The position numbers were made by a program, and so were the translations under genes. Source: Photorhabdus heterorhabditis (lineage in GTDB: Bacteria; Pseudomonadota; Gammaproteobacteria; Enterobacterales; Enterobacteriaceae). Taken from it: a DNA stretch of 64,000 nt. Under the pieces are notes generated by a model. It was not told where the DNA came from. It saw nothing but the letters and a program-made list of their open reading frames with translations, and did not search any database. Shown in pieces: positions 3,904 to 4,930 of this stretch; positions within the stretch are counted from its first letter, which is position 1; the number at the start of each line of letters is the position of its first letter. The stretch spans positions 62,001 through 126,000 of the forward strand of contig NZ_RCWA01000011.1 of NCBI RefSeq assembly GCF_018448905.1, read 5' to 3'.

Positions 3904-3931
3904 TTGACTCATCCTGAACTATCCCTATAAT
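3904..3931 (+). promoter_or_regulatory. Sigma-70 promoter of the Val/Lys tRNA array
   Basis: TTGACT at 3904-3909 and TATAAT at 3926-3931 with a 16-nt spacer, followed by a GC-rich discriminator (GCGACTCC), 17 nt before the first tRNA-Val. This is the usual form of a stable-RNA promoter. Confidence 0.85.
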
Positions 3932-3948
3932 GCGACTCCATCACGACG

Positions 3949-4024
3949 GGGCGATTAGCTCAGTTGGTAGAGCATCTCCCTTACAAGGAGGGGGTCATCA
4001 GTTCGAATCTGGTATCGCCCACCA
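3949..4024 (+). tRNA. tRNA-Val(TAC), copy 1
   Basis: 76 nt, starts GGGCGATTAGCTCAGTTGG and ends with encoded CCA. Anticodon stem CTCCC/GAGGG around TTACAAG, anticodon TAC. First gene of the array. Confidence 0.97.
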
Positions 4025-4054
4025 TCTCGTTGTGATAGAAATGATTTTATGATT

Positions 4055-4130
4055 GGGCGATTAGCTCAGTTGGTAGAGCATCTCCCTTACAAGGAGGGGG
4101 TCATCAGTTCGAATCTGGTATCGCCCACCA
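4055..4130 (+). tRNA. tRNA-Val(TAC), copy 2
   Basis: Identical to copy 1, 30 nt after it; same anticodon TAC and encoded CCA. Confidence 0.97.
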
Positions 4131-4175
4131 ATCATAAATTTAGTGATATAAAATGCAGTGATAGTCCTTTGAAGT

Positions 4176-4251
4176 GGGCGATTAGCTCAGTTGGTAGAGC
4201 ATCTCCCTTACAAGGAGGGGGTCATCAGTTCGAATCTGGTATCGCCCACCA
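4176..4251 (+). tRNA. tRNA-Val(TAC), copy 3
   Basis: Identical to copies 1 and 2, 45 nt after copy 2; corresponds to the third gene of the E. coli valUXY set. Confidence 0.97.
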
Positions 4252-4292: not shown

Positions 4293-4368
4293 GGGTCGTT
4301 AGCTCAGTCGGTAGAGCAGTTGACTTTTAATCAATTGGTCGCAGGTTCGAATCCTGCACGACCCACCA
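4293..4368 (+). tRNA. tRNA-Lys(TTT), copy 1
   Basis: 76 nt, starts GGGTCGTTAGCTCAGTCGG, anticodon loop CTTTTAA with anticodon TTT, T-loop TTCGAAT, encoded CCA. All stems are intact. Confidence 0.97.
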
Positions 4369-4407: not shown

Positions 4408-4483
4408 GGGTCGTTAGCTCAGTCGGTAGAGCAGTTGACTTTTAATCAATTGGTCGCAGGTTCGAATCCTGCACGACCCACCA
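4408..4483 (+). tRNA. tRNA-Lys(TTT), copy 2
   Basis: Identical to copy 1 and intact. The 39-nt spacer before it recurs after the second pseudo-tRNA, at 4833-4871. Confidence 0.97.
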
Positions 4484-4518: not shown

Positions 4519-4658
4519 AGGTCATTAGCGTAGTCGGTAGAGCAGTTGACTTTTAATCAATTGGTCGCAGGTTCGAGCCGAGCGAAGCGAGACAACAACG
4601 CGACAGCGTTGGCCCGAAGGGCGAGGCCGTAGGCCGAGTCATCCTGCACGACCCACCA
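4519..4658 (+). pseudogene. Degenerate tRNA-Lys with a 64-nt T-loop insert, copy 1
   Basis: A tRNA-Lys copy 140 nt long, that is 76 plus 64. The 5' end reads AGGTCAT instead of GGGTCGT, giving acceptor mismatches at pairs 1-72 and 6-67. The D-arm GCTC is changed to GCGT, which weakens its pairing. The anticodon TTT and the CCA are kept. The T-loop is split after TTCGA by the insert at 4577-4640 and resumes with ATCCTGC. It is unlikely to make a normal tRNA unless the insert is removed. Confidence 0.85.
4577..4640 (+). repeat. 64-nt multi-hairpin insert in tRNA T-loop, copy 1
   Basis: Can fold into four consecutive hairpins: mini-hairpin GC-GAA-GC; CAACGC-GACA-GCGTTG; GCCC-GAA-GGGC; GGCC-GTA-GGCC. 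Short GAG/GA linkers join some of them. It begins and ends with GCCGAG. A second copy at 4752-4815 differs at 11 positions, all in loops or as three compensatory base-pair changes. The element was not recognised as a known family. Confidence 0.85.
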
Positions 4659-4693
4659 TCTTAAAGTTTCATTCAAAAACAAATTTCCTGAAT

Positions 4694-4832
4694 AGGTCAT
4701 TAGCGTAGTCGGTAGAGCCGTTGACTTTTAATCAATGGGTCGCAGGTTCGAGCCGAGCGAAGCGAGACAACAGCGCATTCGCGCTGGCCTAAAAGGCGAG
4801 GGCGTAGCCCGAGTCATCCTGCACGACCCACC
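4694..4832 (+). pseudogene. Degenerate tRNA-Lys with a 64-nt T-loop insert, copy 2
   Basis: Tandem copy, 175 nt downstream of the previous pseudo-tRNA, with the same acceptor and D-arm defects. Outside the insert it differs from copy 1 by two substitutions (AGCAG to AGCCG, AATTGG to AATGGG) and loss of the final A of CCA. The insert occupies the same place in the T-loop. Confidence 0.83.
4752..4815 (+). repeat. 64-nt multi-hairpin insert in tRNA T-loop, copy 2
   Basis: Same length and end sequences as copy 1. The hairpins are GC-GAA-GC, CAGCGC-ATTC-GCGCTG, GCCT-AAA-AGGC and GGGC-GTA-GCCC. The paired changes relative to copy 1 are A-T to G-C (insert positions 22/33), C-G to T-A (39/43) and C-G to G-C (51/57). 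Confidence 0.85.
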
Positions 4833-4871
4833 TTCAAAAAAGCGCATTTCAATCGAAATACCATCTTAAAT

Positions 4872-4930
4872 GGGCCGTTAGCTCAGTTGGTAGAGCGGTT
4901 GATTTTTAATCAGTAGATCATATGTTCGAG
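4872..4930 (+). pseudogene. Truncated tRNA-Lys remnant
   Basis: Begins GGGCCGTTAGCTCAGTTGG and keeps the D-arm and a TTT anticodon arm. It then diverges (ATCATATGTTCGAGTTGG) and lacks the T-arm 3' half, the acceptor 3' strand and CCA. It is preceded by a copy of the spacer found between the two intact Lys genes. Confidence 0.75.

Follow-up and report, generated by a model that had tools for sequence, protein, structure and literature searches.

The window examined here, a stretch of 64,000 nucleotides from the insect-associated bacterium Photorhabdus heterorhabditis (NZ_RCWA01000011.1, positions 62,001 to 126,000), carries on its forward strand a tRNA cluster that resembles one operon: a promoter-like site is followed by three tRNA-Val genes, two intact tRNA-Lys genes, and two interrupted tRNA-Lys genes. 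The σ70-like promoter (3904–3931) agrees with the consensus at 11 of 12 bases, a consensus match only, from a scan that returned three sites in the region against 2.6 expected. By tRNA gene prediction, the three intact tRNA-Val(TAC) genes occupy 3949–4251 and the intact tRNA-Lys(TTT) genes 4293–4368 and 4408–4483.

The interrupted tRNA-Lys genes, referred to below as chimeras, span 4519–4658 and 4694–4833 and admit a single parse, TTCGA/insert/ATCC, which places the interruption between tRNA positions 58 and 59. In the first copy, a tRNA-Lys 5′ body with mismatches in the acceptor and D-stem (4519–4576) runs to TTCGA at position 58 and is followed by a 64-nt insert (4577–4640; four hairpins at 4577–4593, 4596–4611, 4612–4622, and 4625–4635) and a tRNA-Lys 3′ end (4641–4658) that is identical to the intact gene at 18 of 18 positions. 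The second copy consists of a 5′ body (4694–4751), a 64-nt insert (4752–4815), and a 3′ end with 17/18 identity to the intact gene (4816–4833); the 35-nt spacer that precedes it (4659–4693) is the same as the 35 nt preceding the first copy. The first-pass annotation had described both tRNA-Lys genes as split after the TTCGA of the T-loop, and its insert coordinates were exact to the base. Downstream, a decayed tRNA-Lys 5′ body (4872–4929) stops at TTCGA; several other Photorhabdus, some having arrays and some not, show related decayed bodies at the orthologous position. The body in the window may mark where an array was lost or where one ends.

The 11 differences counted earlier between the two inserts were reproduced (positions 22, 26–29, 33, 39, 40, 43, 51, and 57). 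From copy 1 to copy 2 there are three compensated pair changes (22/33 A-T to G-C, 39/43 C-G to T-A, and 51/57 C-G to G-C); the remaining five differences are loop sites, and hairpins 2–4 of copy 2 contain no broken pair. The 58-nt 5′ flanks differ at two sites, and at the 3′ end of copy 2 the last base differs (or one base has been lost). When 11 random substitutions were simulated in copy 1, at least three compensated pairs arose in 36 of 200,000 runs, and no pair was broken in 1,530 of 200,000.

Across 35 distinct 64-nt Photorhabdus inserts, all three sites covary: pair 22/33 is GC in 29, AT in five, and other in one; pair 51/57 is CG in 29 and GC in six; and pair 39/43 is CG in 32, TA in one, and other in two. 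The covarying positions hold up in more copies to this extent, yet a few copies are broken and the pair-type count is not above that of shuffles; the 19 pairs taken together are paired in 92.6% vs. 90.4% in shuffled inserts. Because the copy 2 variants at 22/33 and 51/57 recur in other Photorhabdus arrays, they may be long-standing alleles passed from copy to copy and need not have arisen after the two window copies diverged; the variant at 39/43 occurs in copy 2 alone. This pattern suggests exchange of core variants between copies.

The inserts as tRNA-linked repeats

Both inserts match the Rfam family RtT (RF00391), with scores of 91 bits for copy 1 and 60.4 bits for copy 2 against a gathering cut-off of 45, and an Rfam scan of the window returned nothing besides tRNA and RtT. 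RtT is the rttR RNA of the E. coli tyrTV operon. tRNA-linked repeats (TLRs) have been known since 1978, and E. coli K-12 has 22 of them at ten loci, each ending in 18–19 bp identical to the upstream gene (Stenum et al., 2021; PMC8144298). The window inserts are securely identified as RtT/TLR cores, a known kind in variant form: the 3′ bases of both copies match the upstream gene as given above, and both lie in a putative tRNA operon, directly after three tRNA-Val and two tRNA-Lys genes. The inverted left arm that is observed in many ordinary TLRs, and that is not part of their published definition, is absent from the window, where tRNA 5′ body stands instead.

With E. coli rttR, the window units share the four-hairpin core, the host-type 3′ end (ATCC...CCA), and a length of ~175–178 bp after a tRNA gene; unlike them, the E. 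coli units carry an inverted tRNA 3′ end at the left, where the window carries tRNA-Lys 5′ body. The likeness to TLRs, including rrA, rrB, and rrF, lies in the 3′ 18–19 bp identical to the upstream gene and in the tRNA or rRNA operon setting, whereas rrA, rrB, and rrF follow 5S RNA. These three bind Hfq and CsrA, and the remaining 19 E. coli TLRs have CsrA binding scores below 0.01; TLRs of tRNA operons are described as having no known function, and an early claim of a role for RtT in the stringent response as retracted (PMC8144298). In Actinobacillus, two RtT-family RNAs adjoin tRNA genes (2016 study, PMC4986893).

Sequences of the rttR or RtT-like type have been linked to REP/BIME elements (PMC12306157; PMC2965389). 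Unlike REP/BIME elements, the core is limited in the host genome to tRNA loci. A dispersed palindromic element of this type was considered and rejected: a covariance model built from the insert alone found nothing convincing beyond three tRNA loci, which hold 11 of its 13 matches (E up to 10), the other two having E-values of 6.2 and 8.4. The RtT model likewise gave 11 matches in the host genome, ten of them above the cut-off, all at three tRNA loci; further copies, as the first-pass annotation foresaw, were found by this model in the host and in other Photorhabdus. The second host locus has two intact tRNA-Lys genes and six interrupted copies, the last of them truncated, beside a gene that we take to be cpoB/ybgF. 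The tyrosine locus has two interrupted tRNA-Tyr genes, one intact tRNA-Tyr gene, and one truncated TLR of the inverted-arm form.

Within the family, 86 of 149 genomes have an RtT match (E ≤ 0.01), and so do all 13 Photorhabdus genomes. Searched across the order, the insert-only model had a match at E ≤ 0.001 in 72 of 295 genomes (18 from the same family), many of them weak. Strong matches outside the family come after tRNA-Pro and tRNA-Ser, and shorter relatives within the family come after tRNA-Arg. Among loci from the order search (middle viewed for 16), six of 17 have no tRNA gene, so weak matches may not all be TLRs. Run on 142 retrieved loci, the insert-only model gave 289 matches (172 + 117), of which 211 share at least 12 3′ nucleotides with a same-strand intact tRNA in the locus (Tyr 87, Lys 87, Pro 26, Ser 11); as the loci were chosen by RtT score, these host shares are not population frequencies. 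Such identity shows that the neighbouring tRNA supplies its 3′ end as the right end of the core. A BLAST search with the insert from the window recovered only 19 of 5,426 genomes of E. coli, each with an annotation as RtT, a number indicating that the insert is too divergent for BLAST counts.

Two loci after tRNA-Pro (L239 and L240) have the TLR between two copies of one terminator-like hairpin with a T run, and there the tRNA 3′ end and the terminator look duplicated together; in E. coli, rrB lies similarly between T1 and T2. A shorter relative near the middle of another locus (L259), where it follows a tRNA-Arg array, seems to have neither hairpin 1 nor the T-arm hairpin but keeps the outer inverted repeat GGGAGGAT...ATCCTCCC.

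Structure of the core

Alignment A1, made of 36 diverse inserts without reference to structure, supports four hairpins and the T-stem: 90.3% of cells are paired vs. 79.9% in shuffled alignments, 16 of 24 pairs change on both sides vs. 9.1 in shuffles, and the covariation score is 0.286 vs. 0.109 when shuffled and at most 0.083 for slid structures. The central proposal of the first-pass annotation, that the structure is kept while its sequence changes, is borne out by covariation in these inserts and in the 35 from Photorhabdus. Pairs that frequently fail in A1 (n = 36) are T-stem pair 1 (in 25), hairpin 1 pair 2 (in 14), and two pairs of hairpin 4 (in 12 and 13).

A tandem G.A motif in RtT has been noted earlier (PMC7657543; PMC8250186). 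Tandem G.A pairs are present in hairpin 1 of 33–34 of the 36 inserts and are Watson-Crick in one (L137); those at the foot of hairpin 4 are Watson-Crick in another (L154). In L166, hairpin 1 read directly is a full Watson-Crick hairpin, although the alignment places it otherwise. The mismatch flanking hairpin 2 swaps among A.G (23), G.A (10), and A.A (3). The first hairpin does contain GCGAAGC, which had been singled out as an unusually stable DNA mini-hairpin; yet its second pair is C.A in 35 of 35 Photorhabdus inserts, and it has the tandem G.A pairs besides.

Energy folding of the window inserts as RNA is unremarkable (z = −1.25 and −1.50), and z-scores overall (−1.25 to −2.23) are not decisive. 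In place of hairpin 4, RNAalifold on A1 favours a longer T-stem in which TTCG pairs with CGAR; since either pairing involves conserved bases, the longer T-stem is a possible alternative fold. In about one third of members, hairpins 1 and 4 have a common module, GA-GC-GNA-GC-GA (A1 columns 14–15/25–26; A2 columns 62–63/73–74), as if one had been copied from the other.

Left arms, tRNA bodies, and 3′ ends

In most non-chimeric TLRs among the matches listed, the core is preceded by the inverted host tRNA 3′ end and then by a short hairpin ending in GGTTCGA or nearly so; by eye, each of the four model matches in E. coli K-12 tyrTV has such an inverted left arm. The relation was scored on 159 distinct rows of the 289 matches, after exclusion of chimeras, repeats, rows whose 3′ end was not classified, and rows with a short left side. 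Complementarity of the arm to its own host's 3′ end at 8 or more of 9 positions was found in 81 of 96 rows for Tyr, 15 of 21 for Lys, 11 of 29 for Pro, and 7 of 13 for Ser, against 5–7% of shuffled arms; the result is weak for Pro, and for Ser the own host is the best in only one of 13, an equally good fit to some other host being the rule. On the left of some TLRs (e.g., L222 and L226) there is no inverted arm and no tRNA body either. Removal of the core in silico leaves a recognisable tRNA in 78 of the 289 matches, 77 of them from Photorhabdus, a test that decayed bodies escape. T-loop chimeras find no mention in the sections of PMC8144298 covered here, and none is reported in the open-access (PMC) literature searched; the fusion of a TLR core to a nearly full tRNA 5′ body looks new.

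tRNA-Lys chimera loci are present in 11 of 13 Photorhabdus genomes (exceptions G138 and G159), with 1 to 15 chimeras per locus (20 loci, 80 matches), and exact intact tRNA-Lys genes number two to four per genome in all 13. Relatives do have empty sites: at four of the 11 (of 13) Photorhabdus loci orthologous to the window site that could be compared (G138, G159, G158, and G151), there is no insert, just the decayed tRNA-Lys 5′ body, and the corresponding stretch of the other two (G153 and G157) has neither an intact tRNA-Lys gene nor the junction motif. A pattern scan of named genomes that required both a tRNA-Lys anticodon arm and the beginning of the core found 23 stretches, 14 from Photorhabdus and nine from elsewhere (two Xenorhabdus, two Chimaeribacter, two Pectobacterium, one Brenneria, one Symbiopectobacterium, and one MAG); both Pectobacterium stretches have part of the tRNA body only. 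Providencia and Arsenophonus carry the inverted-arm form after tRNA-Lys. In the 8-kb Symbiopectobacterium stretch (L289), where ARAGORN detects no tRNA gene, the tRNA-Lys body continues into a TLR core that is truncated.

Decay was counted from all 80 Photorhabdus matches with a tRNA-Lys body by taking the 70 whose 3′ end matched at 13 or more of its 18 bases; the other ten comprise nine without a 3′ end, running into other sequence, and one with a one-base deletion. The 44 distinct chimeras have 51 substitutions on the 5′ acceptor strand and three on the 3′ strand; per locus (copies within a locus are not independent), a majority of copies is changed on the 5′ side in 15 of 18 and on the 3′ side in 0 of 18. 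Outside Photorhabdus, where five of the nine scanned loci were used (bodies matching at least 44 of 58), ten of 12 distinct chimeras have 5′ acceptor changes, and the 3′ end is unchanged in 11 and absent in one; this end was found by a lenient pattern, by which the zero of changed 3′ ends is somewhat favoured. All seven acceptor pairs are kept in 16 of 42 distinct chimeras (G.T counted; rows pre-selected by 3′ end). With the acceptor stem opened from the 5′ side, many copies should not mature as tRNA-Lys.

Origin and possible role of the chimeras

We consider it probable that in each interrupted gene a tRNA-Lys gene and a TLR (Rfam RtT) have been joined into a chimera, with an origin by recombination and a mode of action through a processed RNA as parts of the same account. 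Judged from the sequences, recombination is the likely origin: an intact tRNA-Lys gene would have recombined with a nearby TLR inside the shared AGGTTCGA, the inverted arm being swapped for tRNA 5′ body, and unequal crossing-over of the ~175-bp unit would then have built tandem arrays, which trade core alleles and can disappear again. Chimeras in other genera, the partial bodies of Pectobacterium, and the inverted-arm forms of Providencia and Arsenophonus fit a fusion within this shared sequence, which possibly occurred more than once. Direct insertion of the core into the T-loop could also make chimeras, the shared sequence being just 8–9 nt.

As to function, the arrays would be co-transcribed with the tRNA operon, and selection would keep the T-stem, the ATCC...CCA end, and the hairpin core; the 3′ end is probably cut as in a tRNA precursor, with release of a structured RNA, and the tRNA body would be a passenger whose acceptor stem opens from the 5′ side. 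Taken together, the kept 3′ strand, the decayed 5′ strand, and the intact genes elsewhere are read as a sign that a signal for 3′ processing is retained and a structured RNA released; the 3′ end could also be preserved through gene conversion by intact genes, with no need for selection. In E. coli, the RNAs of TLRs that follow 5S rRNA undergo processing (PMC8144298), and by analogy a processed RNA insert, one of the two readings offered by the first-pass annotation, is possible.

Alternatively, the arrays may be neutral debris, tandem repeats spread by unequal crossing-over and having no function at the RNA level, a view that concerns function only and is compatible with the proposed origin. 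It would account for the wide range of copy number between loci, the empty sites, and the decay of tRNA bodies, and the retracted stringent-response claim (PMC8144298) is in keeping with it; family-wide covariation, the keeping of the 3′ strand while the 5′ strand decays, and left arms that match their own host all speak against it, and we regard it as possible but rather unlikely. Another reading makes the chimeras a selected RNA class, in which a tRNA body with a four-hairpin extension of the elbow has in several genera repeatedly had its acceptor stem opened from the 5′ side; such an RNA would retain its T-arm and CCA end for 3′ processing while avoiding 5′ maturation and charging, and the products would be lysine-tRNA-like decoys tracking transcription of the tRNA operon. 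This we hold to be unlikely.

It appears distinctly improbable that the core is itself a mobile element whose repeated, direct insertion targets the 58/59 junction of tRNA T-loops. Lys and Tyr chimeras do have one insertion point in common (which the pattern of one supporting scan itself required), and chimeras are found in several genera, but the same T-arm sequence lies left of the core in ordinary TLRs, which explains the fixed insertion point, and the host genome has no convincing copies off tRNA loci. Similar DNA occurs in 17 plasmid records, some of 55–144 kb (four near 55 kb); however, all 17 are typed non-mobilizable and eight are at least 488 kb, three of them over 4.7 Mb. A longer query found 135 plasmid records, just two of them over 80% of the query; many are presumably tRNA genes. 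The phage collection gave two records, of which one is a Salmonella genome record and the other carries no annotation. The maintained structure, further copies, and insert-free sites of the earlier interpretation stand, but its free mobile hairpin family gives way to the known RtT/TLR family, the ten convincing host matches of which sit at three tRNA loci.

A bacterial tRNA intron, excised so that the halves join into tRNA-Lys, is hardly credible: T-loop position 58/59 is a place that might tolerate extra sequence, archaeal and algal tRNA introns lie near position 59/60, and clean excision in silico restores an intact sequence in some copies, but the intact tRNA-Lys genes of all 13 Photorhabdus genomes make splicing unnecessary and leave the host independent of it, many chimera bodies, unlike those of such introns, have decayed and show changes in the 5′ acceptor strand, a TLR of the inverted-arm form offers no tRNA body for splicing, and we know of no splicing system for such inserts.

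For annotation, these loci pose a practical problem: the tRNA finder skips both chimeras in the window and, of the six interrupted copies at the C25 locus, reports just three, whose 3′ ends it places wrongly. The alignments yield a fuller structure of the core, with four hairpins and tandem G.A pairs. As fusions of a tRNA-Lys gene with a TLR, the chimeras suggest how TLRs and host tRNA genes exchange parts, and they provide a natural test of which parts are kept (the core, the T-stem, and the 3′ strand) and which part is free to change (the 5′ acceptor strand).
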